Notes: generated by a model from the letters alone, not told the origin. 64,000 nucleotides of DNA from Candidatus Nitrosotalea okcheonensis (GCF_900177045.1 NZ_LT841358.1:823073-887072); one strand, 5' to 3'; positions 48,059-63,979 are shown, counted from the stretch's first letter. Numbers and translations are program-made.

Positions 48059-48073
48059 CAAAATGAAAATGGG
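48059..48073. repeat. Target-site duplication, left
   Basis: CAAAATGAAAATGGG, identical to 63895-63909. It borders the left end of the casposon and copies the end of the tRNA-Pro gene plus 11 bases after it. Confidence 0.9.
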
Positions 48074-48104
48074 GGGTATAGATGAGGACTCTGCGTTTGA
48101 CTAT
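48074..48104 (+). repeat. Casposon terminal inverted repeat, left
   Basis: 31 bp beginning GGGTATAGATGAGGACTCTG, matched exactly and inverted at 63864-63894. Weaker similarity continues inward for about 16 bp (10 of 16), as far as 48120. Confidence 0.9.
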
Positions 48105-48210
48105 GAATTAACGTATGAATCAAAGTAAGAATTTTAGTTAGAATGAAAATTAGAACACGAGTTAAGATGAAACTGATTTTTCCTTAAATAATTCAATAGA
48201 TTTTCTAACA

Positions 48211-49002
48211 TTGTTGGTCACAAAAACAGATACACATGAATTACTGCATTTTATTGATCACCTATCGAATCTGAATACTTTGTTTGATGATTTTCCAGAT
48301 TTTAAAGAAGAGTCTTCTAAAATTTATGTTAGAACATCTGGTGGCATAGCAGATTCATTTGAGACTTTGCTTGAGAGATTAGACAATATTGGAGAGAAAA
48401 TAGAAAAAGTTGATGGTGTAAAATCGTCAATTAGACGATGGATAAACCGATTAGATAAAAATTATAGCGAGGATGAAGGTACCAATCTCCCGGTATATCT
48501 CACAAAAGAAGATGCAAAAGCTCTGAGGAAAGAAACTCAAAAATGGCTCGATAAGATAATTGAATCGTTTGATAATTCTGGCACGGCCATAATAAAGGAA
48601 AATCAAATCAATGAAGTCTTTTCAAAGGAAATAATGGATAGGTTAGACAATGATGCACAAAAGGATTTGAAAGAAGGAATTGACGTACTATTACATGGCT
48701 ATCCAACTGCAGCAACTATGATTTTATTCAGAATGGCAGAGAGAATGATCCGAGAATTATACAAAAACACTACAGGAAAGGAGGTTGGGAAAGAAACATG
48801 GGGACATATGCTTACAGCAATAGGACAACATGAGGACTTTCAAAAAAATGACGATAACAAAGTGTTGATGGGATATTTGTACTATCTTAACAAAAAGAGA
48901 ATCAATGCAGCTCATCCTTATAGAAGATACACTCAGGAAGAGGCAGAACGAATACTATTACAAATCAAAGATATGCTTGAAGAGATACATCATAGAAAGT
49001 AA
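48211..49002 (+). CDS. HEPN-type/DUF4145-like cargo protein
   Basis: 263 residues from a TTG (position of the start uncertain). N-terminal two-thirds are helical. The C-terminal part GIDVLLHGYPTAATMILFRM then AERMIRELYKNTTG and KKRINAAHPYRRYTQEEAER reads as a DUF4145/HEPN-type domain; RINAAH (residues about 230-235) is an R-x4-H motif. HEPN proteins are often RNases in defence and toxin systems. Function not tested. First gene inside the left end of the casposon. Confidence 0.55.
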   Translation: MLVTKTDTHELLHFIDHLSNLNTLFDDFPDFKEESSKIYVRTSGGIADSFETLLERLDNIGEKIEKVDGVKSSIRRWINRLDKNYSEDEGTNLPVYLTKEDAKALRKETQKWLDKIIESFDNSGTAIIKENQINEVFSKEIMDRLDNDAQKDLKEGIDVLLHGYPTAATMILFRMAERMIRELYKNTTGKEVGKETWGHMLTAIGQHEDFQKNDDNKVLMGYLYYLNKKRINAAHPYRRYTQEEAERILLQIKDMLEEIHHRK

Positions 49003-49139
49003 TTTTTAGAGAACATTTATTCTCAAAATTAACCAACAGTTCAGGCTCTACTTTTAGATACAATTCTAACTTTTCTAAATCATCTTTTCTATCATTCTAA
49101 AATGATCATCTTTATCTCAACAATACATCTAGTCTACAT

Positions 49140-49283
49140 GTGAGAACCGGAATACTGGTTACAGGGGCAATTCTCATAGTATTTGGAGTAATTGGATATG
49201 TGTATCCGGTAACAAGTGTAGGTTCAGTATCTGACATAGATGACCTGTGTAAATCAACCATTGGTTCTATAGGAAGGTGTTAA
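49140..49283 (+). CDS. Small membrane protein, 5' half (frameshift suspected)
   Basis: 47 residues from GTG 49140: LVTGAILIVFGVIGYVYPVT then SVGSVSDIDDLCKSTIGSIG. It ends just after the start of the next frame, whose opening LNEQVRENCQLAKYAVLGVY continues the same kind of protein. One extra base near 49276 would join them. Confidence 0.4.
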   Translation: MRTGILVTGAILIVFGVIGYVYPVTSVGSVSDIDDLCKSTIGSIGRC

Positions 49284-49546
49284 ATGAACAAGTTCGTGAA
49301 AATTGCCAACTTGCAAAATATGCTGTACTTGGGGTATACGCATTAATTGGAACTGGTGCAATTCTTGTAATTATAGGTAGTATAATAAAGAACAACTCTT
49401 ATTCAAATCAACCACTCAGCCCACATGCAAAAAAATCAATCATTGTTGTAATTGGAATAATTTTTGCAATAATTGTTGGAGTAATCGTATATCCGTTTTA
49501 TTGCAACCTGATATTTAAACGTCAAATCTTGCCTTTAGTGCAATGA
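49277..49546 (+). CDS. Small two-helix membrane protein, 3' half
   Basis: 89 residues: AVLGVYALIGTGAILVIIGS and SIIVVIGIIFAIIVGVIVYP are membrane helices. The start is GTG 49277. It probably continues the 49140-49283 frame as one disrupted gene of about 137 residues. It overlaps the next gene by 4 bp (ATGA). Confidence 0.5.
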   Translation: MLNEQVRENCQLAKYAVLGVYALIGTGAILVIIGSIIKNNSYSNQPLSPHAKKSIIVVIGIIFAIIVGVIVYPFYCNLIFKRQILPLVQ

Positions 49547-50073
49547 AAAATCAGCAACTAGTCAAAGTGTTAGATCAAGGTAGGGTTTCAAACACAGGGA
49601 ATTTTCACTATACTTCAAGTCATGATGATACATATTTCATCATCTTTAGTAATGAATTTTCAATCATTTCGACAAAGTCTGTGTCTTTTACATATGTATA
49701 CAACGGGCAACAGAACCATCAATCTTTTACAATACCACCGGGTGCATTCAAAAGTATGCCTGTATTGATACATTCAGGTCAGTCAATAACTGGAACTTTT
49801 ACGGCTTCTGGCGGTTCTGGAAATGATGTGGACTTTAACATCAGTACTATGACTTGTACTCAGACAGTCAACTTTAGTTTTAGTTTATCCAATACAGGTC
49901 AAGCAAATGGAAACGCGGATGTTGCATTTGAGGTAGATGGAAAACCAGTTTGGTCAAACAATTATTCAGTAGACATGGGAAAACAAACTAGCGTAAGTGG
50001 TTCTACATCATTATCAGATTGCAATCCGCACGATTACAAGGCAGTTGTTACAAACCAACAACGAACTAGATAA
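49543..50073 (+). CDS. GSGND-domain beta protein, N-terminally truncated
   Basis: 176 residues. Its start (YFIIFSNEFSIISTKSVSFT) matches the end of the domain in the 51449-51958 protein (YLIYDNTFSVLSSKEVSTDV), so it opens mid-domain. A second domain then begins with FTIPPGAFKSMPVLIHSGQS and ASGGSGNDVDFNIS (GSGND loop shared with the other protein). The first domain half and any signal are missing. Perhaps an extracellular beta module; function unknown. Confidence 0.55.
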   Translation: MKNQQLVKVLDQGRVSNTGNFHYTSSHDDTYFIIFSNEFSIISTKSVSFTYVYNGQQNHQSFTIPPGAFKSMPVLIHSGQSITGTFTASGGSGNDVDFNISTMTCTQTVNFSFSLSNTGQANGNADVAFEVDGKPVWSNNYSVDMGKQTSVSGSTSLSDCNPHDYKAVVTNQQRTR

Positions 50074-50136
50074 TCTGCAATAGATGAAAAACCTAGATAC
50101 AAAAAATTTATTATCTTCATTAGAGATTGTATTACA

Positions 50137-50244
50137 TTGGACAGTTTATCAGAAATGGCATTAGCAGGATTTGTTGGTACTACAGCTGCTAATCTAGTTA
50201 CTTTAATGCTGTCAAACGTCATAGAAAGTAAAAAAAATTACTAA
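50137..50244 (+). CDS. Very short possible membrane frame
   Basis: 35 residues from TTG (MDSLSEMALAGFVGTTAANL...). It looks like one hydrophobic helix with a Lys end. It sits alone in the 217 bp between two real genes. Could be chance. Confidence 0.25.
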   Translation: MDSLSEMALAGFVGTTAANLVTLMLSNVIESKKNY

Positions 50245-50290
50245 AAGTGTCACCTATTTCGACACTTTCATACGATGGTGGAGAAAATTT

Positions 50291-51019
50291 TTGAAGCCCC
50301 GAGTGATTTATCGCAATAGATTCATTAGATCTAGAACTGGTACTTTGGTGCTTGTCATTCCAGCACCATTGGCAAAAGAGATGGGTTTTAAAATTCATAA
50401 AAAATCGCGTGATTATGAAAAAGAGACTGTATTGAATTCAAGAAATGAAGAAGCCGGTTTATACATTTGGCTTAATTCTGATTATGAAATTGAGATGTGT
50501 GATACTTCAAAACCCTTGCAGAATACAAACGGCATAATGTCTACAGAGGGAGTACATCCGCATGGTAAATCATGTGAACTTACTATTCCATATAGTATAA
50601 GAACCACATATCAATTGCTAGGTATTGATCTTAACAAGGTGGATATTCTAAAAAATGAACAGGGCAATATAGTAGTCAAACCCCATCTAAACTCGAATAC
50701 CGTTTCAAACACATCTGGAACTAAAGTGCTAATTGATATAATGCGTGACGGGCTAGATGATACTCTGAGAAAACATGATTATGATGCACATAGCGTAAAA
50801 AAACTATGTGAGGAACAATCATTGAATCTTAGAAGCGATTTTTCCCTTATGAAATATGCAGAAAAACACAACATGATTATAGTAACAGAAGATAAAGACA
50901 ATGTACTGGGCTGTAGAGAAAATAATATGGACTGTGTTGAATTCGGTCAATCTGACACACTAGAATATCTTTTAGAAGAACTTGAAAAAATAATGCGAAA
51001 GCGAAACGATGATCTTTAG
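50291..51019 (+). CDS. AbrB-like plus DUF5615-type PIN fusion
   Basis: 242 residues from a TTG. N-terminal part has two AbrB-like hairpins: GTLVLVIPAPLAKEMGFKIH and HGKSCELTIPYSIRTTYQLL. The C-terminal part (from residue about 145) resembles DUF5615/Mut7-C PIN-like nucleases: VLIDIMRDGLDDTLRKHDYD, then NLRSDFSLMKYAEKHNMIIV and TEDKDN. Three Asp sites fit the catalytic positions. A toxin-like nuclease joined to its DNA-binding part would be self-contained. Activity is inferred. Confidence 0.65.
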   Translation: MKPRVIYRNRFIRSRTGTLVLVIPAPLAKEMGFKIHKKSRDYEKETVLNSRNEEAGLYIWLNSDYEIEMCDTSKPLQNTNGIMSTEGVHPHGKSCELTIPYSIRTTYQLLGIDLNKVDILKNEQGNIVVKPHLNSNTVSNTSGTKVLIDIMRDGLDDTLRKHDYDAHSVKKLCEEQSLNLRSDFSLMKYAEKHNMIIVTEDKDNVLGCRENNMDCVEFGQSDTLEYLLEELEKIMRKRNDDL

Positions 51020-51072
51020 AGAGTATTATAAAATAACCACATTTCTTTATTTATGAAAAATAATTAGAGTAC

Positions 51073-51381
51073 ATGGCAGTAAAGAAAGCAATCTCATCCA
51101 TTGATCTTTTGATTCAAGAAAAGAAGGAGTTTAGAACAAAAGTAGTAGGTTCGGAGGAATTGCCACCTCTCATTCAAGGTGATATTATCAATCGATTTGA
51201 TAGAGCAATGTGGTCTATGTTACAAGGAGACATTGAATGGTTACAGGCAATAAAAAGACAACTTTTGCCAGACCAACACAGAACAAAGATAGTTTGCAGA
51301 CATCCAAAGAAGGATCATGATACTGATGGCAGTGGTCAGAAATACTGTATGAATTGTAATGCAAATTTGCCCAGTTTATAG
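51073..51381 (+). CDS. Small protein with zinc-ribbon-like tail
   Basis: 102 residues. Helical N-terminal region (SSIDLLIQEKKEFRTKVVGS) and a C-terminal CRHPKKDHDTDGSGQKYCMN then C, i.e. C-x-H...C-x-x-C spacing for metal binding. No family recognised. 53 bp after the AbrB-PIN fusion, maybe same transcript. Confidence 0.55.
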   Translation: MAVKKAISSIDLLIQEKKEFRTKVVGSEELPPLIQGDIINRFDRAMWSMLQGDIEWLQAIKRQLLPDQHRTKIVCRHPKKDHDTDGSGQKYCMNCNANLPSL

Positions 51382-51448
51382 TTTCATTGTAAACAGAAAC
51401 ATGAATAAAAGTTAAGAAAATAATTCAGAATTATTGTTTTTAAAATTA

Positions 51449-51958
51449 CTAACTTGTGTATGTTAAAGATACATCGGTTGATACTTCTTTGCTTGATAAT
51501 ACGGAAAAGGTATTATCATAAATAAGATAAAGTGTTTGCCCGGACGGAATATTTGCATTAATGTTACCTACTGTCTCTTGACCACTGTTGTAATACACAT
51601 TTGATTGATGACCATTTCTCCAGTTGATAAAATTCTGATCATCCATTATGAATACACGTATGTCATTACCGCTTCCTCCTCCTGCAGTGAATTTGCCGCT
51701 TACGTAAGCATTAGTAGAACCAGAAGGGGCTGAAAATGTGTAATAAGTATAGGTATGTGCATTGACGTGAACCATGTCATTTACCAAAGACGCTGTATGT
51801 TGTGTAGGAACATAGACCGGAGCATTGTTCCCTCCACCTGAATAATTATTGGTATTGACCAAATGTGGTGCCACCATGAGAACTACAAAAACTACTGCTG
51901 CCCCTACAGCTGCAGGAATTGCTAATTTTGAATATTTTCTTTGTTTTGGCAGACTCAT
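51449..51958 (-). CDS. Membrane-anchored GSGND-domain protein
   Basis: 169 residues with an N-terminal anchor (LAIPAAVGAAVVFVVLMVAP) and a Gly/Asn linker, then a single beta domain: HTYTYYTFSAPSGSTNAYVS, KFTAGGGSGNDIRVFIM and YLIYDNTFSVLSSKEVSTDV. It shares both the GSGND loop and the closing segment with the 49543-50073 protein, so the two are paralogues on the casposon. Confidence 0.65.
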   Translation of the reverse strand: MSLPKQRKYSKLAIPAAVGAAVVFVVLMVAPHLVNTNNYSGGGNNAPVYVPTQHTASLVNDMVHVNAHTYTYYTFSAPSGSTNAYVSGKFTAGGGSGNDIRVFIMDDQNFINWRNGHQSNVYYNSGQETVGNINANIPSGQTLYLIYDNTFSVLSSKEVSTDVSLTYTS

Positions 51959-52090
51959 GTATGACTATCAAAAAATAATAGAAGATAAAGATGATCATAT
52001 GTTTCGTCATATGGAAACATGGCACTGCTTGTACCTGACAACAACAAATCATCAAATTCAGATGTATTCATGATACAAGTTTCTCGAATT

Positions 52091-52220
52091 TTACCGATAG
52101 TTGAGGAATAGTTACCGACAGTTTACAAGTTTCGATGATTCTTTTACCGACAGTTTACAAGTTTCGATGATTCTTTTACCGACAGTTTACAAGTTTCGAT
52201 GATTCTAGTATCGATAGTTT
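52091..52220. repeat. 32-bp tandem repeat, three exact units plus decayed ends
   Basis: Units start at 52112, 52144 and 52176 with period 32 (TTACCGACAGTTTACAAGTT then TCGATGATTCTT). Only the last base of unit 3 differs. Decayed starts lie at 52091 (TTACCGATAGTT) and 52208 (GTATCGATAGTTT). There are no spacers, so it is not a CRISPR array. It could be a replication origin with iterons or an operator. Confidence 0.9.
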
Positions 52221-52264
52221 TGGAAATTATCTTTTTTAATTCATCATACTTATTAGAAATCATC

Positions 52265-52393
52265 TCAAACTTTCCATTGACGTTGTATTCTCTCTACTAG
52301 TTTTGCACGTAATTTGATATTTTCAACCTGAACCTTTTCATATTCTATTTTCATTTTTTGTATTTTTTGATCCTTATTGACATCTTTTAACAT
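52265..52393 (-). CDS. Short coiled-coil protein
   Basis: 42 residues: MLKDVNKDQKIQKMKIEYEK then VQVENIKLRAKLVERIQRQW, a charged heptad-like helix. The ATG overlaps the stop of the 52387-53085 gene (ATGTTAA), so it is likely coupled to it. It ends 45 bp before the tandem repeats. Confidence 0.45.
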   Translation of the reverse strand: MLKDVNKDQKIQKMKIEYEKVQVENIKLRAKLVERIQRQWKV

Positions 52394-53085
52394 GATCTTC
52401 CAGAGAGTTTCAATTCATCAAAATCTTTGTCAGAATTCAACATTTTAGATGTCTGACCACCACTGTCTGTTCTATATGTTACCTGTATTTCCCATCTTTG
52501 ACTAGATTTCGTATAGGTGTCTATTGGATGTATTCCATGAATCAAACAATCTGACAAATTTGGCTCTTCTCTTCCAGTATGAATTTTAAAAAAATAACCC
52601 AGACCAATTACGTCCATTTTATAAAACTCTGAACCTCTGGATGATATTATTTTCCCCACCTTTTCATAAGTATACGAAGTAAGAAGATTACATTCATCAA
52701 TCAAATCATAGAATGACTCGACATCTTTTCTAAAATTGCTGTCTTCTATTAGGTGATAAGTGTAATTGTTTTTTATTGCTTTCCAAGTATTGACGATGAA
52801 TTGATAGTAATGTCTTGTACTTGATAGTAAATCATATCTTGTTTCAATTAGGATGCTTTCATCATAAAGGGGGCCATAAACACTGTCTACGGTTTTTATT
52901 ATGAAATCTCTCTTCCATGCTCTTCGTTGTGTTTTGGTCTGAACTACATATGATAATACAAAACCTATTGTCACACCTATAACAGTACCCGCAATCGGAT
53001 AATTTACAAAAAAGCTTATGGCCATTCCAGCAGTGGCCAAGATGGAAATTATCAATATACTTAGTTTATTCCATTCTGTTTCCAT
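52387..53085 (-). CDS. Membrane-anchored protein with cytoplasmic domain
   Basis: 232 residues. Two N-terminal helices (ILIISILATAGMAISFFVNY, TVIGVTIGFVLSYVVQT), then a basic segment (KTQRRAWKRDFIIKTVDSVY) and a cytoplasmic helical domain. The C-terminal part (QRWEIQVTYRTDSGGQTSKM) is beta-like. No family recognised. Divergent from the HEPN gene at 53149 (63 bp between starts), so it may form a pair: membrane protein plus nuclease. Confidence 0.55.
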   Translation of the reverse strand: METEWNKLSILIISILATAGMAISFFVNYPIAGTVIGVTIGFVLSYVVQTKTQRRAWKRDFIIKTVDSVYGPLYDESILIETRYDLLSSTRHYYQFIVNTWKAIKNNYTYHLIEDSNFRKDVESFYDLIDECNLLTSYTYEKVGKIISSRGSEFYKMDVIGLGYFFKIHTGREEPNLSDCLIHGIHPIDTYTKSSQRWEIQVTYRTDSGGQTSKMLNSDKDFDELKLSGRSC

Positions 53086-53148
53086 CTAGTATGCTTAGGT
53101 TGAATCTAGCATAAATAAAGATATGATTGACCTAGATTTGATTATATC

Positions 53149-54153
53149 ATGAGCAATGATAGTAATCCAGAAAAACTTCCAAGCGATAAAGAAATCAAGA
53201 AATTCATGAAAGATTTCATTCATGAATTCAAGCCATATGCAGCTAAATTAACTGGAGAAAACATGTCAATGCATTATGACAACAATGATTTACAGAATAT
53301 TAAAAATTTCATTGAATTGGCAAATGATTACAATCGAAAAGAAAACTCCATTGCAAGTGAAGACATTGCGGAACACGCAAAGTTACAAAAACGAATGGAT
53401 CTAACAGATGATATTCTAAAATCTATTTTGGGATTAACGTCAGATAATCCAGCACTTGAATTGGCTCAAATATCCAATCCGAAAAATTCCTACGAAAAAA
53501 TCATTCCAGATATAAATTACAGGACATTAATGCGGGGTACAATACATAAGGTTCTTCACACCATAGATCAGATGGGAAAACTGGAACAAATTAACAATTT
53601 CATAAAATCCATGAGACCTGATGATGTTTTTGCAATGTCACAAAGTGCCATTAGGGTTAACGAGATTATACGATCTGTATTGAAGACTAGAAAAAGAATT
53701 ACAAAGGAAATAGTGGAACAATATGTAGAAAACTATAAAGAAATATCGGGTTTCTTGGAACCGCTAATTGTAGTGCTTTTTGGTATGCAACAAATCATAC
53801 AGGATAAATACAAACTTTTTACGGAAATTAAAGAGAAAATTCCCATTGGAAATCTAACCAATCAACTAAAATCTGATCAAATGTTCAATCCTCTAGTGGA
53901 AAAATATGATCCACGCACAAGGAATTCTATAATACATGTTAGTTATCATATAGATCCAATAAATAAAAAAATCGAATTTAATGATAAAGGAAAAATGTTT
54001 TCATTAACTTATTCGAAATTTGTTGAATATGTGCAAGAAGTGACCAAGATTGCAATCATAATATGTCATTTTGAGGAGGAGATCAGATTTCTCACATTTC
54101 TAGGATATGCCAAAAAAAGAGATGATACTCTCAATCTCAATATTGAATACTAA
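53149..54153 (+). CDS. HEPN-domain protein
   Basis: 334 residues, nearly all helical. Near residue 258 the motif RTRNSIIHVSYHIDPINKKI holds RNSIIH, the canonical HEPN R-x4-H with a polar residue after Arg. FSLTYSKFVEYVQEVTKIAI follows, as in HEPN proteins of the apea/C-terminal type. HEPN RNases act in many toxin-antitoxin and abortive-infection systems. The N-terminal domain (about 190 residues) is unknown and may sense or bind the partner. A four-helix membrane protein is 38 bp downstream. Confidence 0.65.
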   Translation: MSNDSNPEKLPSDKEIKKFMKDFIHEFKPYAAKLTGENMSMHYDNNDLQNIKNFIELANDYNRKENSIASEDIAEHAKLQKRMDLTDDILKSILGLTSDNPALELAQISNPKNSYEKIIPDINYRTLMRGTIHKVLHTIDQMGKLEQINNFIKSMRPDDVFAMSQSAIRVNEIIRSVLKTRKRITKEIVEQYVENYKEISGFLEPLIVVLFGMQQIIQDKYKLFTEIKEKIPIGNLTNQLKSDQMFNPLVEKYDPRTRNSIIHVSYHIDPINKKIEFNDKGKMFSLTYSKFVEYVQEVTKIAIIICHFEEEIRFLTFLGYAKKRDDTLNLNIEY

Positions 54154-54191
54154 GACAACAAATACAAACTATTATTGTCACATGTTAGAAT

Positions 54192-54737
54192 ATGTCTGAT
54201 GATTGTGCACCTACTCGTTTAAGTAAGATACTAAGTTTTTTGCCACCAATACGGATTGTAACCATTCTTAGTATCATGGTATTATTCCCATCTCTGAGAT
54301 TATCGTGGGAATTTGCTGTTGTGATCTATCAAGGGTTTGCTTTCTTTTTCGTGGGTAGTTTTGTAATGGAATGGATTTTAATTTCCAAACTAAAAGGACT
54401 TCGCAAGGAATTCTGGCCTCTGTATAGCAAATATGTGGCATCGCTACCGTTCGAATTTCTTGGCGTGTTTGTATTTGTCATATACAGCTTTAGGCCTAAT
54501 TCTGGCTCTGTTGATTGGGATGAAGTAAAGTTTGCTTCAATAGCATTGGGAGGGGGAACGATTTTAGAAATACTTCATCGTTATGTATATCCAAAACTGC
54601 CTAAAGGTAAGGAAATTAAAAGTGCAAAAGATATAGGTGTAAAAGAAATTCTGTCAATCATATCATTGACGGTATTGATTGTTTTTCTGGGATTATATAC
54701 AGTCATATGGCAAGATAACGTGATTTTAAAAATTTAA
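54192..54737 (+). CDS. Four-helix membrane protein
   Basis: 181 residues with membrane helices at about 20-38, 48-65, 80-105 and a C-terminal one (ILSIISLTVLIVFLGLYTVI). Acidic/basic loops. It follows the HEPN gene by 38 bp on the same strand, so possibly an effector or partner. Similar small membrane proteins occur at 61371 and 63433 in this casposon. No family recognised. Confidence 0.55.
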   Translation: MSDDCAPTRLSKILSFLPPIRIVTILSIMVLFPSLRLSWEFAVVIYQGFAFFFVGSFVMEWILISKLKGLRKEFWPLYSKYVASLPFEFLGVFVFVIYSFRPNSGSVDWDEVKFASIALGGGTILEILHRYVYPKLPKGKEIKSAKDIGVKEILSIISLTVLIVFLGLYTVIWQDNVILKI

Positions 54738-54758
54738 TGAGTGTTTTAAAAATTTAAA

Positions 54759-55988
54759 TTAATCTTTATTAAATTTTAACAAACTTTTATCGTAAAATTT
54801 AACTTTTTTACCATCTTGTATGTTCTTTTTCATGTACCAAAGCGTAGATTTGTTGATTCCAAGTCTTTTCCTCTCATCAGGCGTCATTTTCAGTATTTTC
54901 CCTTTAAAATCCAAAGTATCCTCGTTTTTAATTTTAAATTCTGGAATTTTAAAATCAATTTTATCACTTTTATCAGCTATTAAATTTGCATAGTCTTGAA
55001 TTTTATAAAATAAAACATTTTCATAGGTGTAATTCTTGCCTTTAAACGGGGCTTTTAAATTAAAATTATTTTTAATTTTTAAAATTAATGCCTTGGCAGT
55101 TGACTCTTTTAATCTTATATTATAATTCTCTGTCACAATAAAATCTGATTTCTTCAACTTGGGCTTGCTGTCAAGTAATTGGATAACTGAATAATCTACA
55201 ATCCATCGAAATAACTCCTGAAAGTCATAGACTAACGGAGTTTTAGCATATGCTAACTCGTGCAACAAGCCAATAGTTGGGTCTAAACCAATAGAGTTTA
55301 ATGACTTTTTAACTTCTGACTCTAAAATGGCATATCCGTAATTTAACAAGGCATTAATTTCATCGGATGCATTGGCATTCCACGAGTTAGACTTGTTCAT
55401 TCTTCCCACGAATTTAAAATCAGGCGCCAATTCTGTAACTAATTTTTTAAATTGATCAAGATAAATTTGGGCAATCCGACCTTCAAAATTCATTAATTTT
55501 TTCAATTTATCTGAAATTGTGCCTGTTTGATCTTTAAAATTTAAATTATTAAATTCATTGTTAAATTGTTTATTAAATTTATTAAAATTTAAAACATTAT
55601 AAAATCTTGATAATTCTTTAATTAAATTCAATGAACTTGTTATTTTGCTATTAACAATTTCAATGGCAATTTTAAACCTGAACTCGTTGTCAAGATACTT
55701 TTGGTACTGTTTTATTCTTACTTTACCTATTTTTGGCTCTTGTGGGAGGGTTACTCCTAGCAGATTCCCATTCCAATTTAACATCGTGAGATTGACATCG
55801 TGTTTTAAAAGCCACCTCATGGACTCGAATGTTATGCTACCAGAATGTCCATCTACTACTATGCTATCATGATCAATTTGATGTGGATAAAACTCTAGTT
55901 TCTCATTTTTTAACTTGTTTTGAATGACTAGTTTTCGTTTTTCTACATTGATTGATGTACCAAAGCCTGAAATTAATAATGGATTCAT
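54759..55988 (-). CDS. cas1: Casposase (Cas1 homologue with C-terminal HTH)
   Basis: 409 residues. The N-terminal beta region (VVDGHSGSITFESMRWLLKH then VNLTMLNWNGNLLGV) and helical domain are Cas1-type. Catalytic metal ligands: E223 (AILESEV), H243 (IGLLHELAY) and D255/E258 (VYDFQEL). A C-terminal HTH at about 365-395 (PDERKRLGINKSTLWYMKKN) is the casposase tail lacking in CRISPR Cas1 and very like the end of the polymerase. No Cas2, Cas4 or CRISPR array is nearby. Cas1 here inserts the element. Very high AT with TTTAAAAT runs; codon use is more AT-biased than neighbours. It overlaps the upstream HTH gene by 4 bp. Confidence 0.95.
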   Translation of the reverse strand: MNPLLISGFGTSINVEKRKLVIQNKLKNEKLEFYPHQIDHDSIVVDGHSGSITFESMRWLLKHDVNLTMLNWNGNLLGVTLPQEPKIGKVRIKQYQKYLDNEFRFKIAIEIVNSKITSSLNLIKELSRFYNVLNFNKFNKQFNNEFNNLNFKDQTGTISDKLKKLMNFEGRIAQIYLDQFKKLVTELAPDFKFVGRMNKSNSWNANASDEINALLNYGYAILESEVKKSLNSIGLDPTIGLLHELAYAKTPLVYDFQELFRWIVDYSVIQLLDSKPKLKKSDFIVTENYNIRLKESTAKALILKIKNNFNLKAPFKGKNYTYENVLFYKIQDYANLIADKSDKIDFKIPEFKIKNEDTLDFKGKILKMTPDERKRLGINKSTLWYMKKNIQDGKKVKFYDKSLLKFNKD

Positions 55989-56704
55989 TTTTTCTTGTCT
56001 CCTATGTGATATTTGAGAATATATGGTCTAGTATGTGGAGTTACACTATCTTGAATCCATATGGCATCAATCGCTTTTTCTTTTTTCCACAGTTTTCCCC
56101 ATTTTTCATAAGAGTCATTTTTTACCATTTTGACTATTTCATCATAGTTTAGCGATATGCCCAAAATGATACTTCCTGTTTTATCGTCTCGTAAATCCAG
56201 TTTTTTGTTTTGAATATTTTCAAGTATGTGACGGATAAGTTCATTTTGAATTCTAATCAAATACTCTTTAGAGATTAGCTGAAAAAGATCAATGCTCTGA
56301 TCTACAGCAACATGAACCGTGCTAGGCCAAAACAATGGTTCTGGTTTACCAGATTTTGGTACTGGAGCCATTGGGACTCCACCTGAAAGATATTTCCCGC
56401 CTCGCTCCTTTATCTCGGTTAAAATATTCTGTAACAGAAAAATTTCATTATATGCAGATTCTCCCTTTTCTGTTAGCTTGTAGGCTTCGTTTTCATTATG
56501 AATTGTTTTTGTAATCAATCCATTTTTTCGGAGTAATTTTAAGTGCTTACTTAGAGTAGTATGAGAAAATAATACTGCATTTTCCAGTTCTTTGAATGTT
56601 TTAGGAGATTTTTCAAGCGCTAGAAGTATGTCTTCTTGATGTTTTCCCTCATCATATTTCTGCTGTCTAGCTGTATATTGCACCATTGACTTGAGTTTAC
56701 TCAA
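55985..56704 (-). CDS. Winged-helix protein paired with casposase
   Basis: 239 residues from TTG 56704 (ATG 56686 is the alternative). N-terminal ArsR/MarR-like winged helix: ILLALEKSPKTFKELENAVL then FSHTTLSKHLKLLRKNGLIT and YKLTEKGESAYNEIF. The remainder is unknown, with PVPKSGKPEPLFWPSTVHVA in the middle. It precedes cas1 by a 4-bp overlap and is divergent from the AbrB-HTH-HNH-polymerase operon (42 bp between starts), so it may regulate both. Confidence 0.75.
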   Translation of the reverse strand: MSKLKSMVQYTARQQKYDEGKHQEDILLALEKSPKTFKELENAVLFSHTTLSKHLKLLRKNGLITKTIHNENEAYKLTEKGESAYNEIFLLQNILTEIKERGGKYLSGGVPMAPVPKSGKPEPLFWPSTVHVAVDQSIDLFQLISKEYLIRIQNELIRHILENIQNKKLDLRDDKTGSIILGISLNYDEIVKMVKNDSYEKWGKLWKKEKAIDAIWIQDSVTPHTRPYILKYHIGDKKK

Positions 56705-56746
56705 CTCATTGGAGTAGTTTAAGTTTTCGCCTCCATATACTATGTC

Positions 56747-56929
56747 ATGGTTAAAACAAATATTCGTAAAATCGGAAAAATCGGCAGTTATACACGCATG
56801 CTTACATTGCCTTTGTTTTGGCTAGAGATAGTCGGGCTTGATGTAGGCGATTTTGTAGAACTGTCACTTGGCAAGAACAAGGAACTTGTCATAAAACCAA
56901 AGAGGGTTAAAAATGAAAAGAAGGAATGA
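56747..56929 (+). CDS. AbrB-like regulator
   Basis: 60 residues: NIRKIGKIGSYTRMLTLPLF then WLEIVGLDVGDFVELSLGKN, the swapped-hairpin pattern with a basic tail. First gene of the polymerase operon. Its end overlaps the next gene's ATG by 17 bp. Confidence 0.7.
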   Translation: MVKTNIRKIGKIGSYTRMLTLPLFWLEIVGLDVGDFVELSLGKNKELVIKPKRVKNEKKE

Positions 56930-57407
56930 AAATTGGAAAGTAGATTTAGATCTACTCACTCCAAAACAACTTGCAAAATATCATGATTCGATTGAAGCAT
57001 TATACTTGATACGTCATGGTTCTTTACTAAAAAAAGCATCAAAAATAACTAGAGTTTCTGTTTCAACGATAAAAAAATACGTTGGTTCTACATTAAGAGT
57101 AAATAATCGTAAAACAATTGCAAGAAAATCTGATAGTCTATTACGTAAAATGAGCATCTATGAAAACGGAAAAGAAGTTTTCATTCAAGTAAAAGGCAGA
57201 AAAAAAGCATCACTTATTGGCAAGTATCATAGTGCAATTGGAAGACTAGATCAAAATGATATGACCAAATTACAGTCGTTCCAAGAAATAAAAATCAGAG
57301 ACATTAAAGGCAAAGTACACAAATTCGAAATCAATGTTGACAAGATAAAGCAAATTCTTGAACGTATTGAAGAACCAGAATTCTTCGATATTTACAGGAG
57401 TAATTGA
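56913..57407 (+). CDS. HTH-containing protein
   Basis: 164 residues. IRHGSLLKKASKITRVSVST then IKKYVGSTL is an HTH resembling recombinase or resolvase-type helices near residue 40-70. The rest is basic and helical. It ends one base before the HNH gene's ATG region, so translation is coupled. Such HTH proteins are known in casposons but their role is open. Confidence 0.65.
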   Translation: MKRRNENWKVDLDLLTPKQLAKYHDSIEALYLIRHGSLLKKASKITRVSVSTIKKYVGSTLRVNNRKTIARKSDSLLRKMSIYENGKEVFIQVKGRKKASLIGKYHSAIGRLDQNDMTKLQSFQEIKIRDIKGKVHKFEINVDKIKQILERIEEPEFFDIYRSN

Positions 57408-57408
57408 A

Positions 57409-57744
57409 ATGAAAGATTACTTTACCAAAATATTAGGATTAATTGCAGAAAAGACATGGACTGATAAATTTGCAACAGGACAAGGATTTTGCATAATCTG
57501 TGGGCACGATGATCCATTAGATCTGGAATATCATCATGTTGCAGGGAAAAACAACAGTTCTCTTGTTGTCTCATTGTGTAGAAATTGTCATGGTAAAGTT
57601 TCAAGGAAACAACAAATTTCATGGCCAGATGAATGGTCAAGTAAAGACAACAGTCTCAAGTACAAAGAAGGATTGATGTTAAGAGGGCTCTCAGACCTTA
57701 TGCGTGTAAAATCTGATCATATTCTTCATGGTGATACTGTATGA
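57409..57744 (+). CDS. HNH endonuclease
   Basis: 111 residues from ATG 57409, preceded by GGAG at about 57396-57399. CIICGHDDPLDLEYHHVAGK then SSLVVSLCRNCHGKVSRKQQ is an HNH core with CxxC, HH and a second CxxC. HNH nucleases are a constant casposon gene; they may nick the ends or the host. It overlaps the polymerase by 4 bp. Confidence 0.85.
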   Translation: MKDYFTKILGLIAEKTWTDKFATGQGFCIICGHDDPLDLEYHHVAGKNNSSLVVSLCRNCHGKVSRKQQISWPDEWSSKDNSLKYKEGLMLRGLSDLMRVKSDHILHGDTV

Positions 57745-60464
57745 ATGAAGAAACCATCGCCATTCGTGCCTACACCGTGCCCAAAAAGAGTAATTTGGGT
57801 AAAAATAAACCCAAATCATACAAAAGACCAGATGATAACGCAAATCCCACATTTGATAGGGTTCTAGTCTTTGATACAGAAACTACTACAGACCTATATC
57901 AGAACCTCAAATTCGGGTATTTTGAAACTTATCAGTATGGCGTTCTTGAAGAAAAAGGCCTCTTTTACGATCCCATAATTGTAAAACCAAAAGAATTGGC
58001 AATACTGGAGTCATACTCTAATGAAAACAATATTTCATTGTACACACTAGAAGATTTTCGTAAAATATTTCTTGGTGAAGTTTATGATCTTCAGACATTA
58101 TGTATTGGATTTAACTTGCCATTCGATCTTACAAGAATTGTATTAAAATCAACTAATGCTAGAAAAAGAAAAGATGCATTTTCACTTGAACTTTCCAAGA
58201 ATCTAAAATATCCAAGATTATATGTCACACATGCTACAAACACGTTATCATTTATCGAGTGGGCAAATTCAATGATATGGAACGGGTTCAAAGGGAATTT
58301 TGTTGATCTTCGTACCTTGTGCCATGCCCTTACCGATACAAAACATTCTCTTGAAAGTGCATGTAAAGCATTTGATACAGAATTTCAAAAATACAAAGCA
58401 AAAGAACATGGAGTTATCAACACTACATACATTAATTATTGCATTAACGATGTAAAATCTACCTATTCACTATACCAAAATACGAAAAAAGAATTTGATA
58501 CTTACGGATTGAAAATTCCTGTAATTAGAGCCTACACACCTGCATCAATTGGAAAAGAATTTCTCAAGAAAATGGGTGTTAAACCATTCTTTGATAAAAG
58601 CCCAAAGTTCTCAAATGAAATAATTGGAAATATAATGACGGGATATTTTGGTGGAAGGACAGAATGCAAGATTAGAAAGACTCCTGTCAAAGTGGATGTA
58701 CTTGACTTTCTTAGTATGTATCCTACCGTTTGTACACTACAAAATCTTTGGAAATTCGTAATTGCAGATCATATAGAGCACGTTGAGGCAACCCAAGAAA
58801 TAATCCAATTTGTAGACGGAGTCACTTTGAGAGATATCCAAAACAAGGAAAACTGAACAAAATTACAGGCAATTGTGCTTGTAGAACCTCAAGAAGATGT
58901 GCTTCCCATCAGGGCAAAATATGGTCAAAAACACGTCTGGAATATAGGCACAAGCCACGTTTCTTCTAAAACGCCCCTTTGGTACAGTCTTGCTGATGTA
59001 ATTGCCTCAAAACTATACACAGGAAGAACACCCAAGATATTGCGTGCTATTAGATTTGTTCCAATAGGCACACAAAAGAGACTAGAAAAAATAGACATTC
59101 ATGGAGTCAAGATCAATCCTTACACTCAAGATCTATTCAAAGAATTAATCGAATATAGACAAACCTTGAAAAAGAAACGTGATGGTTTTACAGAAACTGA
59201 TTCTAAATATTCCTATTATGACAGAAAACAAAACGTAGTCAAGATTATAACAAATGCAATAAGCTATGGAATTTTTGTTGAAATAAACACTTTGGAAGAA
59301 TCATACAAGGTTCCAATTGATGTCTATGGTCTGTATCATTTTCAACAAGAAAAAACCAAGATTGAAAAATCTGGGTTTATGTTCAATCCCATAATTGCTG
59401 TGTGTATAACATCTGCATCAAGATTATTGCTTGCAGTAACGGAAATTTTGCTATCAAATAATGGTTCTAGTCATGCATATTGTGATACAGATTCTATGAT
59501 GGTACATTCAGAGCATACAAAAGAAATTCAAGAATTCTTCCAGTCATTAAACCCATATAGTTTTAATACGGAGATATTCAAACTAGAAAGAAAAGATGTT
59601 TGGTTTTATGGAATATCTGCAAAAAGATACTGTCTTTATACAATAGAAGATAATAAAATTATAATCGAAAAAGAAAATTATTCATCTCATGGTCTGGGGC
59701 ATCTTTTAGATCCATTTGCTAATGACTCCGACAAAAAAGATGACTGGCACAAAATAATTTGGCATGATATTCTCGGTTTGCATTATGGAACTGTATCCAT
59801 GGAACAACTGATTGAAAAATATGAAAACAAGTATGCCTTGTCTCAACTTTCAATTTCAACTCCTAGAATACTTGATAGATTAAGAGAATTTAACGAGGGT
59901 AAAGACTATCATCATCAAATCAAACCGTCAAATTTCTCTCTAGTGGGATTTGCAAATGCCACTGATGAGAAAAATTCTCAAATCAAGCCAATTGCGCCCT
60001 ATAGGAATCCTGCAAAACATGCAGTCTATGACTATTTTGTGGATTATTATGACAAATCTAGGCACAAATTAAGAGGAAAGCAGTACTGGAAGACCTTTTG
60101 GAGTACATTTAGGGATTATCTTGGTCATCATGAATCAAAATTTGATGGCAATACTGGAATATTAGCAAGAAAGTATGTCGATGTCATTGGAATAGTACAC
60201 ATTGGAAAGGAAAGCAACAATTTGGAAGAATCAGAGGTTTTAGGAACTAGTTCGGATAGTTATGAAATCTATGAGAATATTGAAAACATAGAACAAAGAT
60301 TCATTAAGATTGCAAAAGATGTTTTGAAATTAAACCCAAGAGATGTTAAAAAATTTGGAATATCAAAGCAGACTTTGTGGAATGTAAAAAGAAAAATAAA
60401 ATTGAATCAGTATAATAAAATTTCAAATAAAATTAAATCACAAATTTTGTGTACCATTAGTTAG
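57741..60464 (+). pseudogene. polB: Protein-primed family B DNA polymerase with in-frame TGA
   Basis: About 907 codons with one stop (TGA at 58854-58856). Exonuclease: FDTETT (about 45-47), NLPFD (about 124-128) and YCINDVKS (233-237). Polymerase: DFLSMYP (about 321), KIITNAISYGIF (about 502) and YCDTDSMMVH (about 579). After the stop the same frame resumes with TKLQAIVLVEPQEDVLPIRA, so a TGG Trp codon became TGA, or it is read through. A C-terminal HTH (LNPRDVKKFGISKQTLWNVK) matches the casposase tail. Would copy the casposon by protein priming. Listed as pseudogene because of the stop. Confidence 0.85.
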
Positions 60465-60492
60465 TCTAATAACACTTGATATCAGATTAATT

Positions 60493-61230
60493 TTAAAATT
60501 CAACCGGGAATCTAGGAGTAAAAGTTTGTTCTAACTCTGTTACATTTTTTATTCTATCCATTCTAAAACCTCGAATGGCATTTTTTCGTATATCCCATGC
60601 AAAAAAGAGTACGGTTCCTCCTTTTCCTCTATGTCTAAAGCTGTATGGTTCTACAACTCTTGGCTCCACAGACCCATCTTCTTCACGTGCTTCAATCCAC
60701 ATCAGCCTACGTTTTTGCCCTGTATGTTGAATAATCCGAGTAATGCTTTCGTGATACAATATTGCCTTTACATATGCAAGTATATCTACTGTAAATTCAT
60801 CTTTCATAATTGTCAAGTCTAATCCGCATACTAGACCCAAGATGCCATTTTCATAACCATTCGTGAAATCTGCATATTTTATGTCGATTATTATTGATGG
60901 GATTTCACATTTCTCTTTTAATACTAGGAGAATTCTTACTGAGTTATCTTTCAGTTTCTTCATTACTGCCGAGGAAAGTTCTTTTTTAACCCAATTGGAA
61001 TTAACAGAATTTGTTGATAATATTATTATCAAATCTGTCATTTTACCAAGAGCAGAATCAATCTTTCCTACTATAGAATCTCCAACTTTAATTTCCCACC
61101 TATCAAAGAACATTGGAAATTTGTATTTTGTTAAATCAATGGCTAGATTTTCTACAAACTCTTTGTCTGTTGAGGAATAACTAAGAAAACCAAATCTCTC
61201 TTTTCTAGTAGACATAATATCTCGTGCCAT
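60493..61230 (-). CDS. TIR-WYL fusion protein
   Basis: 245 residues. TIR domain 1-135: FLSYSSTDKEFVENLAIDL, FDRWEIKVGDSIVGKIDSAL and SNWVKKELSSA, with E84 at the NADase position. The C-terminal part (about 175-240) has the WYL pattern: VEPYSFRHRGKGGTVLFFAW and GFRMDRIKNVTELEQTFTPR. TIR enzymes cut NAD+ in antiphage and plant defence; WYL domains bind nucleic acid or nucleotides and often regulate defence genes. No Thoeris ThsA, SAVED or other partner is seen. ATG 61215 is an alternative. Convergent with the polymerase. Confidence 0.75.
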   Translation of the reverse strand: MARDIMSTRKERFGFLSYSSTDKEFVENLAIDLTKYKFPMFFDRWEIKVGDSIVGKIDSALGKMTDLIIILSTNSVNSNWVKKELSSAVMKKLKDNSVRILLVLKEKCEIPSIIIDIKYADFTNGYENGILGLVCGLDLTIMKDEFTVDILAYVKAILYHESITRIIQHTGQKRRLMWIEAREEDGSVEPRVVEPYSFRHRGKGGTVLFFAWDIRKNAIRGFRMDRIKNVTELEQTFTPRFPVEF

Positions 61231-61235
61231 AATAT

Positions 61236-61283
61236 GTTATTAAATAATAACAGTATGAAGATTTAGTATCTTAAACTTAAGAT
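61236..61283. promoter_or_regulatory. Two 7-2-7 palindromes before the TIR-WYL gene
   Basis: GTTATTAAATAATAAC (61236-61251) and ATCTTAAACTTAAGAT (61268-61283), both 7-base arms with a 2-base centre, lie 5 and 37 bp upstream of the TIR-WYL start and also in front of the rightward membrane gene at 61371. A dimer-binding site for the WYL part is possible. Confidence 0.55.
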
Positions 61284-61370
61284 GACATACGATCATCGTA
61301 AAAATATTATGAAAAATGATTTCTCTGAAAACCGCATTGTTTAATTTTATAGCATTGATTCAACAAGCAA

Positions 61371-61991
61371 GTGAGCAATTCTAATAGAAAAAAGGATTAT
61401 TGGGAAATTTACTTAGATTTGGCAGATGTTATTTTTGGAGTAATTATTGCAGCCAGTTTTCTGAATTTCCAAGCAATACTTGTACCCTTTAAGCTTAATT
61501 TTGCAACCATGATGTTACTGTCAGCATATTTGACAGTGGTTCTCAGTTGGATTGGTTATCATAAGGCAGTGGAAGATAAACCTCACAAAAATGTGTCACG
61601 ATTTGTTATTGATCTGATTCTTTTGTATTTTTACTTTTATCTCATATTCACTAATAATATCAAAGATTTCCTTGGCGTATTAGCAGCTATATTCCTTCTT
61701 TATCTAATATGGGTAGTTCTACGAAATAACGAATATAAGAAAGAAACCAAAGAACAACGCAGACAAGAGCACTTTAAAATTGTCCGATCTTCTATTTTCT
61801 TTCTAGCATTCATTATTTTATGGGGATACTATAGAACCTATTTACAAGGAATCGGTGATGAGTTCCTAGGTGGAAAATTAATTGATTGGGTCATGTTAAT
61901 TATAGCAACAAGTTTGAACATACTTTATAGAGTTATTTGGCCTCTCCTGTCAAAAAGATTCAGTAGTTCATTGTCATCAAAAAGTAATTAG
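61371..61991 (+). CDS. Polytopic membrane protein
   Basis: 206 residues from GTG 61371. About six helices (DVIFGVIIAASFLNFQAI, TMMLLSAYLTVVLSWIGY, FVIDLILLYFYFYLIFT, FLGVLAAIFLLYLIWVVL, IFFLAFIILWGYYRTYL, LIDWVMLIIATSLNILY). Divergent from TIR-WYL across the palindromes, so it may be its partner or membrane effector. No family recognised. Confidence 0.6.
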   Translation: MSNSNRKKDYWEIYLDLADVIFGVIIAASFLNFQAILVPFKLNFATMMLLSAYLTVVLSWIGYHKAVEDKPHKNVSRFVIDLILLYFYFYLIFTNNIKDFLGVLAAIFLLYLIWVVLRNNEYKKETKEQRRQEHFKIVRSSIFFLAFIILWGYYRTYLQGIGDEFLGGKLIDWVMLIIATSLNILYRVIWPLLSKRFSSSLSSKSN

Positions 61992-62004
61992 TTCATCATG
62001 CAAC

Positions 62005-62367
62005 TTATTTTGCAAACTGGTATCTATGTTCAATTTTTTGTTCTGGAATTTCTTTAATGTTAAAGAAAATCTTCTTTCCATGTTGTTTTGCATATTCTAA
62101 TTCAAGATTTGCACCACGTGATGGTGCCAAAAGTAGTAATGCATCGCAATCCTCTAACCACGCATGATCCATTTCTATGTAATCTTCCCATTTCAAACCT
62201 TGTTTTGTTTCTTGACTTCGTAATTCTATCCAGTGAGTCAAATGTGGAAGATACGGATAATGTCCTTTTTTATAAATCGCAATAGCCGCATCAATAGCAT
62301 TATTGACATTCTTCTGTATTTCTAAATCAGTAGATGCAGTATAAGGCCCTGCAACATATATTTTCAT
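62005..62367 (-). CDS. Nucleoside deoxyribosyltransferase-like (DUF4406) protein
   Basis: 120 residues from ATG 62367: MKIYVAGPYTASTDLEIQKN then YPYLPHLTHWIELRSQETKQ and MDHAWLEDCDALLLLAPSRG with NLELEYAKQHGKKIFF. This is the NDT/DUF4406 Rossmann-like fold; GPY and SRGAxxE are the substrate sites. These enzymes move or hydrolyse deoxyribose or NAD-type glycosides. Near a TIR gene it may act in a nucleotide-based defence, but it could be metabolic. Convergent with the membrane gene. Confidence 0.7.
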   Translation of the reverse strand: MKIYVAGPYTASTDLEIQKNVNNAIDAAIAIYKKGHYPYLPHLTHWIELRSQETKQGLKWEDYIEMDHAWLEDCDALLLLAPSRGANLELEYAKQHGKKIFFNIKEIPEQKIEHRYQFAK

Positions 62368-62502
62368 ATTGTCTGCCATCATGTAAGAAAGTATCAAAAA
62401 CCGGTATATAATGAATAGTTTCTTTAGGATGTGAACTATCAGTCAAACTAAAGTTCTTTGTATTAAGAAACCTGTAAAATATCTATGTAGTAAAAATTGG
62501 AT

Positions 62503-63432
62503 TTATTCCTTTAATGTTTCATGTCTTTTTTCGAATTCTTCGATCTGTGCCTGAAATTCTACCTCCGAAATATCTGGTTGTTCACTTACCCACTGAGCTA
62601 AACTTTTAGCTTCAAGATCGTTATCACTTATGTCCTGCAAAGTTTCCACAATATCCTTGTCAAAAAATTGTCTTATTCTTTCTACTTGATAAGGTTCCAG
62701 AAATGTTCCCGCGGGACCATTAATACCAAATTTTTGTTCTATGGGAGTATACTGTAATGCAACTGGATACTCTAGAATATGCAAGATAATTACAGATTTA
62801 GCAACCTTGATCACCAACTCAGACCATTTCAATAAGGATTTTTCATTGAAGCGATTGCAAGTAGAATTGCCTAAATCCATATTAGAATGAGAACGTCCTT
62901 TGGTATGTACAAAATCTGATAACTGTTTGAAAATATTGTCTAGTTCATTAAAGATTTCATGCTTATCATCAAATTTTCTAAAGTTTTGATTGGTTTTGAG
63001 TTTTGTATACATGGTTTTTTTACGCTGGGTATTTTCAAACGAATGTAACCATTTCTGAATATCCACATGGCTTCTTCCATCAATATCCCAGTATACCGAT
63101 AGAAGTCCAAGCTCCAGAACACTTCTTAATGCTATGAAGGCATGTTTGTAAAACCCAAGTTTACAAAGCATAATTGAATTTTCCAACTCGGAATTGGCTT
63201 CTACAATAGGAAACATATGACCAGACCAAAACTTTTCTACTGTCTGAGGCATCAAATCTTCAAGCGAATGGAAAACAGAGAGGAGACTCCTTATTCTAGA
63301 AGATAGATCCTTATTCGATTCCAAGTACCTGTTACTTTGTTCTAAAACTTGTAGAATATTTTCGTCTGAGTTAATTAGATGCATATGACTCTTGTTTGAT
63401 TTGTTGGTAGCCATTGAATAAATTGATTTCAA
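62503..63432 (-). CDS. DUF5677-like/HEPN-type cargo protein
   Basis: 309 residues, helical. MLCKLGFYKHAFIALRSVLE then LGLLSVYWDIDGRSHVDIQK and FKQLSDFVHTKGRSHSNMDL resemble DUF5677/AbiV-type HEPN relatives with Arg and a later His. The C-terminal quarter is acidic. It overlaps or abuts the membrane gene at 63433-63801 (same strand, no gap). Probably paired with it. Confidence 0.5.
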   Translation of the reverse strand: MKSIYSMATNKSNKSHMHLINSDENILQVLEQSNRYLESNKDLSSRIRSLLSVFHSLEDLMPQTVEKFWSGHMFPIVEANSELENSIMLCKLGFYKHAFIALRSVLELGLLSVYWDIDGRSHVDIQKWLHSFENTQRKKTMYTKLKTNQNFRKFDDKHEIFNELDNIFKQLSDFVHTKGRSHSNMDLGNSTCNRFNEKSLLKWSELVIKVAKSVIILHILEYPVALQYTPIEQKFGINGPAGTFLEPYQVERIRQFFDKDIVETLQDISDNDLEAKSLAQWVSEQPDISEVEFQAQIEEFEKRHETLKE

Positions 63433-63801
63433 CTAGAATTTTGAAAATGGAAGAAATACATACGTCATTCCTCCTAAAACAATGAATACCAAGGTAAAAC
63501 ATGCGACACCATAATAATATGAAAATCGTATTTTTTCGTGAATTTCTTTTCTATTGGCTAATCCGCTATAAAGGAAATATCCTATTAACATACTCATCTC
63601 GATAAGAAAATTCTGACTTGTCAATTGTTTGTGAAATGCCCCGTTTATGGCATCATTAACAACAAAGGTGATCATTACCGCTAAAATTATCATAAATACT
63701 GATCTTCTCAAAATTGGCTTCTTTTTTACTATCATGGGAGCAACTCTGTCAGCAATCAGCATTACAATGAAACTCAAAATGAATATAGAAAATGAATCCA
63801 A
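63433..63801 (-). CDS. Small membrane protein
   Basis: 122 residues with four helices (SIFILSFIVMLIADRVAPMI, VFMIILAVMITFVVNDAI, FLIEMSMLIGYFLYSGLA, YGVACFTLVFIVLGGMTYVF). Abuts the DUF5677-like gene. The last cargo gene before the right terminal repeat. No family recognised. Confidence 0.55.
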   Translation of the reverse strand: MDSFSIFILSFIVMLIADRVAPMIVKKKPILRRSVFMIILAVMITFVVNDAINGAFHKQLTSQNFLIEMSMLIGYFLYSGLANRKEIHEKIRFSYYYGVACFTLVFIVLGGMTYVFLPFSKF

Positions 63802-63863
63802 CAGTATACTATCTCATCATTACTTTAAAAATTTAGTTCTAGTTTTCATTCGTACTTTGGTAT

Positions 63864-63894
63864 ATAGTCAAACGCAGAGTCCTCATCTATACCC
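63864..63894 (-). repeat. Casposon terminal inverted repeat, right
   Basis: Exact inverted match to 48074-48104; ends TATACCC at 63888-63894. Weaker match continues inward to about 63848. Confidence 0.9.
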
Positions 63895-63909
63895 CAAAAT
63901 GAAAATGGG
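63895..63909. repeat. Target-site duplication, right
   Basis: CAAAATGAAAATGGG; identical to 48059-48073. The last four bases (63906-63909) belong to the tRNA-Pro 3' end. Confidence 0.9.
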
Positions 63910-63979
63910 ATCGGCCGGATTTGAACCGACGACCTCAGGTACCCAAAACCCGAATCATGCCAAGCTAGACCACGATCCC
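63906..63979 (-). tRNA. tRNA-Pro (anticodon UGG)
   Basis: 74 bases. On the minus strand the acceptor GGGATCG pairs with CGATCCC plus discriminator A; the anticodon loop is TTTGGGT in a CGGGT/ACCTG stem (TGG anticodon); the T arm is GTCGG-TTCAAAT-CCGGC. CCA is not encoded and no intron is seen. Its last four bases are inside the duplicated target, so the tRNA is intact after insertion. Confidence 0.95.

Follow-up and report, generated by a model that had tools for sequence, protein, structure and literature searches.

The casposase (Cas1) and the DNA polymerase (PolB) of family 2 casposons end in homologous helix-turn-helix (HTH) tails, and patterns across related elements make it probable that this one duplicated module has come to serve two addresses, with the PolB tail directed to the ends of the element itself and the Cas1 tail to the tRNA gene into which the element inserts. 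The case is strong for the predicted pairing of PolB tails with the terminal inverted repeats (TIRs) and moderate for that of Cas1 tails with the tRNA T-loop. The window analysed here is a 64,000-nucleotide stretch of the 1.97-Mb thaumarchaeal genome of Candidatus Nitrosotalea okcheonensis. A preliminary description of it had noted similar C-terminal modules on the two enzymes and had suggested that both are led to the same DNA, for example the terminal or tandem repeats, so that replication would be coupled to integration.

The casposon in the window

A family 2 casposon spans positions 48,073-63,895 of the window at the 3' end of a tRNA-Pro gene and is bounded by 32-nt TIRs and a 14-bp target site duplication (TSD), AAAATGAAAATGGG (Table 1). 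The element displays the traits of its family, namely a Cas1 with a C-terminal HTH, a PolB with a similar HTH, likewise C-terminal, and TIRs flanked by a TSD of 14-15 bp at the 3' end of a tRNA gene. Within the core gene set, one winged-HTH protein is clear, the HNH match is weak and the second HTH protein has no Pfam match. The interval to which the preliminary description had assigned the paired tails, 55985-60464, takes in the PolB tail and leaves the Cas1 tail outside. Elsewhere in the window, a TIR protein domain (PF13676, 1.4e-22) is fused to a WYL domain (PF13280, 1.9e-6) at 60493-61230 on the minus strand, and 3.4 copies of a 32-bp repeat lie within the casposon at 52112-52220.

Table 1. 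Features of the casposon and its insertion site, numbered from the first nucleotide of the window
Feature	Position	Strand	Basis or remark
Left TSD AAAATGAAAATGGG	48060..48073	.	Boundary uncertain by one G
Left TIR GGGGTATAGATGAGGACTCTGCGTTTGACTAT	48073..48104	+	32-nt inverted repeat with TSD
Inner TIR word TTTGAC, left arm, candidate PolB-tail site	48096..48101	+	Predicted from word position in TIR
Cas1 casposase, 409 aa	54759..55988	-	PF01867, 1.7e-56; aligns to M. mazei casposase 6OPM, residues 2-396
Cas1 C-terminal HTH tail, about residues 352-409	54762..54935 (about)	-	Helix 3 NKSTLWYMKKNI, about 54819-54854
Winged-HTH protein, core family 2 gene	55985..56704	-	HTH_5, 1.2e-07
Second putative HTH protein	56913..57407	+	Place in conserved block; no Pfam match
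Putative HNH-like nuclease	57358..57744	+	Weak HNHc_6, 0.0099
Family 2 PolB with in-frame TGA (58854-58856) at conserved Trp	57741..60464	+	Alignment with relatives
PolB C-terminal HTH tail	60228..60461 (about)	+	Helix 3 SKQTLWNVKRKI, about 60363-60404
Right TIR	63864..63895	-	Inverted repeat with TSD
Inner TIR word TTTGAC, right arm, candidate PolB-tail site	63867..63872	-	Predicted from word position in TIR
Right TSD AAAATGAAAATGGG	63896..63909	.	Repeat of left copy
tRNA-Pro, insertion target	63906..63979	-	tRNA gene at casposon end
T-loop TTCAAATC, candidate Cas1-tail site	63918..63925	-	8 bp outside TSD; TCAAATC requirement in A. boonei, PMC6614799
T-loop word TTGAAC	63921-63926	+	

The window PolB is not a single open reading frame, as alignment with relatives reveals an in-frame TGA on a Trp that is kept in all seven aligned relatives. 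Recoding, with the TGA read as Trp, was set aside because a single gene is affected and the relatives are intact, a combination that favours a nonsense mutation or a sequence error. No relative turned up when viral contigs were scanned with the PolB alignment.

Homology of the two tails

Homology of the tails was tested on relatives taken from whole genomes, and the result is decisive. A hidden Markov model (HMM) built from PolB tails only matches nearly all intact Cas1 tails with E-values of 1e-12 to 1e-5, while reversed decoys begin near E=1; the reciprocal search with a Cas1-tail HMM retrieves most PolB tails, and each model matches the other set and little else. Profile-profile alignment of 21 against 21 tails with hhalign gives a probability of 99.1% over 67 columns, and the likeness extends across about 50 residues, beyond the 18 first quoted. 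Predicted structures place four helices in identical order in the two tails, with model confidence that is moderate for Cas1 (mean pLDDT 72) and good for PolB (83). The earlier observation of similar C-terminal tails thus holds far above chance, and the mutual profile matches, which the preliminary description had proposed as a check, support its notion of a common module on two enzymes.

In the collections searched, the module could be assigned to no HTH family. No Pfam or NCBIfam HTH model scored above its curated cut-off with the tails (the best, HTH_psq, reached 15.1 of the required 20.4 bits), and Foldseek searches with the two tail models, PolB and Cas1, yielded nothing significant; in VIA-align, run with the PolB tail model only, 5 of 15 aligned chains had a Z-score of at least 2, the best being 2.6. 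Across nine thaumarchaeal genomes, the PolB-tail profile matched casposon PolB and Cas1 proteins and short fragments like them, with zero matches in the three genomes picked as being without casposon Cas1. In the genomes tested, the module is restricted to casposons.

In a tree of the tails, which rests on 51 columns, Cas1 tails group together save that one Methanomicrobiales PolB with a Cas1-type tail (L099:1202-3874) is placed, on a long branch, among methanogen Cas1 tails. A second, decayed Methanomicrobiales PolB (L246:8945-9283) has a tail 77% identical at the protein level to Cas1 tails. Taken together, these two cases point to at least one probable transfer of the module from Cas1 to PolB later than the origin of the two copies. 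The candidate pairing of the L099 PolB with a Cas1 gene of the same genome (G300, L243) as one element was rejected, since their target duplications differ. Other derivatives of the tails were also encountered: a stand-alone 75-aa ORF like the Cas1 tail (L047:11120-11344) occurs in a genome (G273) that has family 2 Cas1 genes and no match to the window PolB, and at three loci (L244, L245 and L054) pieces of Cas1 and PolB adjoin in casposon remnants left by deletion or rearrangement. L054 was considered as a genuine fusion gene and rejected, being taken as a rearranged remnant.

Co-variation of the PolB tail with the inner TIR

Relations between tails and TIRs were examined in 35 mapped elements with TIRs and both genes, comprising 22 methanogen elements and 13 others, nearly all with a target duplication. 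The outer 13 nt of the TIR are common across elements and track phylogeny, as represented by the enzyme cores, and not the tails; the inner part is variable. When the TIRs are aligned at GGG, AC occupies about nt 27-30 in 33 of the 35 elements (L085 and L116 are without it) and is preceded by four variable bases and mostly, before those, by an A/T run. We take the resulting NNNNAC, about 24-29 nt from the element end, as the candidate word for the PolB tail.

The inner TIR co-varies with the PolB tail when the PolB and Cas1 cores are controlled for in a partial Mantel test, both in the full set (r=0.447, P=1e-4) and within the methanogen (r=0.605, P=1e-4) and non-methanogen (r=0.262, P=0.024) elements; the same test with the Cas1 tail gave nothing significant in the 35 mapped elements. 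Three close elements illustrate the pattern. L218, L225 (which is MetMaz-C1 of Methanosarcina mazei Go1, judged by TIR and TSD) and L229 are 92-93% identical in the Cas1 core, 97-98% in the Cas1 tail and 91-92% in the PolB core; their PolB tails are only 45-60% identical, and their words are GTGTAC, CGCAAC and TTGTAC, respectively, each of which recurs in distant elements with a similar PolB tail type. When per-column association with the inner TIR is averaged by region of the PolB tail, it peaks in helix 3 (mean 0.39) and falls to about zero in the linker.

The relation is also predictive. For elements beyond the mapped set, the word was read off one TIR head by a search that demands AC, and hence only the four variable bases test the prediction; with this restriction, the nearest PolB tail gives the exact word for 23 of the 30 elements held out, against a permuted mean of 4.0 (P=5e-5), and is wrong by at least two bases for 4 of the 30. 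A helix 3 motif, xY[LIM]K, pairs with TTGN in 11 of 12 elements with the motif and in 0 of 58 without it, a rule first spotted in part of the same data. On the PolB-core tree, motif and TTGN each change nine times, and all seven independent pairs agree (p=0.016). An exception is L246, whose decayed PolB bears a Cas1-type tail and whose word is TGCAAC. In L073, L087 and L099, PolB tails with a Cas1-like xY[LIM]K accompany TTGAAC, which is the T-loop sequence on the opposite strand.

The Cas1 tail and the tRNA T-loop

Helix 3 of the Cas1 tail is near-constant, with its Tyr present in all 35 tails, and the targets are the 3' ends of genes for tRNA-Pro, Ser, Glu, Val, Arg, Leu and Gly. TTCRAATC lies 20-22 nt from the TIR in 28 of the 35 targets. 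Because every tRNA gene has a T-loop, its presence at a tRNA-end target is by itself no proof that the tail reads it. Mutagenesis described in PMC6614799 shows that the A. boonei casposase depends on a TCAAATC located 8 bp upstream of the TSD. The M. mazei casposase is inactive without its HTH or when target bp 12-17 are mutated, and its authors suggest that the HTH may read an upstream sequence (PMC6977970). A 17-nt TIR end still integrates in vitro, so that the inner word is dispensable for the integrase in vitro, as fits a role with the polymerase. In one element (G299, loci L063/L064), Cas1 is without the HTH and is itself decayed, whereas the tail of the family 2 PolB is retained, together with the word TTTGAC; at its site, no tRNA gene and no T-loop motif were found nearby. 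We consider it most likely that the Cas1 tail reads the T-loop sequence TTCRAATC.

Among the alternatives, the one that fares best, and still an unlikely one, is that the Cas1 tail is structural, acting in assembly or bending, and that the T-loop is recognised by a different part of Cas1, an arrangement that would leave the PolB half of our model standing. In its favour, the M. mazei HTH is disordered in the crystal, no DNA binding was seen for the isolated HTH (PMC6977970), and a family 1 casposase without an HTH still integrates at its own target. However, the solved M. mazei complex did not include the required upstream target sequence, so that no reader other than the tail is known, and a T-loop-like word occurs in elements whose PolB tail has a Cas1-like helix 3, which points to the tail, and not the Cas1 core, as the probable reader of the T-loop.

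Alternative readings of the PolB association

A quite improbable explanation of the PolB association is hitchhiking, whereby the 3' end of PolB and the right TIR recombine together and the left TIR is homogenised afterwards, with no need for the tail to read the TIR. Between close elements, the conserved block that runs from Cas1 to the PolB core does stop at the start of the PolB tail, and both outer arms differ, as recombination of this kind would leave them. In two pairs of elements (L080/L209 and L223/L228), however, tail type and word are common and the DNA from the tail to the right TIR is unrelated (about 55-60% in global alignment), as are the left arms; such unrelated DNA where tail and word agree counts against simple linkage. 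Nor would hitchhiking account for the peak of association in helix 3 or for the recurrence of the tail/word association across phyla.

Less probable again is the proposal of the preliminary description that the two tails share one DNA target, whether TIRs or tandem repeats, and so link replication to integration. Besides the homology of the tails, it draws support from the two Methanomicrobiales PolBs with a Cas1-type tail and from the thaumarchaea, in which helix 3 is similar in the two tails and the TIR word TTTGAC and the T-loop word TTGAAC are near-identical; the intuition of similar readers was in this respect sound. Yet Cas1 tails do not track the TIR word, and L218, L225 and L229, whose Cas1 tails are 97-98% identical, have three different inner words, as described above. 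In 33 same-element pairs, Cas1 and PolB tails are no closer than tails of different elements within the clade (P=0.46), the Cas1 targets share the T-loop instead, and the 32-bp repeats contain neither word, which counts against the tandem repeats as a common site. Support for guidance to the terminal repeats is accordingly confined to PolB, whose tail type varies together with the inner word and allows it to be predicted.

That a different protein of the element reads the inner word is the least probable alternative, given that, although HTH and HNH-like proteins are also encoded, the DNA that separates Cas1 from PolB is 86-92% identical among L218, L225 and L229, whose words differ.

A proposed two-address model

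In the model that we prefer, a single HTH module common to family 2 Cas1 and PolB gave rise to copies that diverged. The PolB tail would recognise NNNNAC at about 24-29 nt from either end of the element that encodes it and thereby carry the polymerase to the casposon ends, its specificity residing mainly in helix 3 and changing along with the word. The Cas1 tail, with its near-constant helix 3, would read the T-loop sequence TTCRAATC 8 bp outside the target duplication and thereby fix the integration site. Physical binding by both tails, like the action of the polymerase at the casposon ends, is what comparison of sequences leads us to expect. We also lean, with some hesitation, towards a more general conception in which the casposon HTH is an evolvable reader of NNNNAC words: a near-fixed integrase copy would serve T-loops, a fast-changing polymerase copy would provide a private end address, and exchange of tails would re-address the polymerase and keep it off neighbouring casposons.

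The model makes two questions testable, namely the role of the casposase's essential HTH and the means by which a casposon polymerase locates its element. The first bears on the casposon origin of CRISPR adaptation because CRISPR Cas1 is without this tail. In addition, a readable tail-to-word relation would allow the polymerase partner of given element ends to be predicted from sequence.

Comparison with known systems

The casposon of the window is probably the same element as NitNCS1-C1 of Ca. Nitrosotalea okcheonensis CS (PMC6563490, 2019): both are inserted at tRNA-Pro, and both encode a WYL protein and a fragmented PolB. The two accounts differ in that a TIR-domain/WYL fusion is seen here and only WYL is mentioned there, and in that the PolB break is here placed at a TGA on a conserved Trp. 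The window Cas1 aligns with the M. mazei casposase (PMC6977970, PMC10359463) along its length, HTH included, whereas MetMaz-C1 differs from the window element in PolB tail type and has the word CGCAAC. The target motif TCAAATC of A. boonei recurs at the same distance at the window tRNA-Pro; where PMC6614799 treats this motif, it neither assigns it to the HTH nor extends it to other tRNA genes.

The paired tails themselves have been in print since 2014 and are not new. Krupovic et al. 2014 (PMC4046053) stated that every family 2 Cas1 has an HTH at its C-terminus and that the PolBs end in a similar one, a statement repeated in PMC9939771, and the window element conforms to their family 2 in its Cas1-HTH and its PolB with a similar HTH and resembles it in its putative core gene set; the parts of that paper concerned with the tails name no partner DNA for either. 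Co-variation of the PolB tail with the TIR was not reported in the casposon literature searched, a body that did not include PMC4779613 on M. mazei casposon mobility. What the present analysis contributes is this co-variation and, with it, a candidate word through which each polymerase may recognise the ends of its own element.
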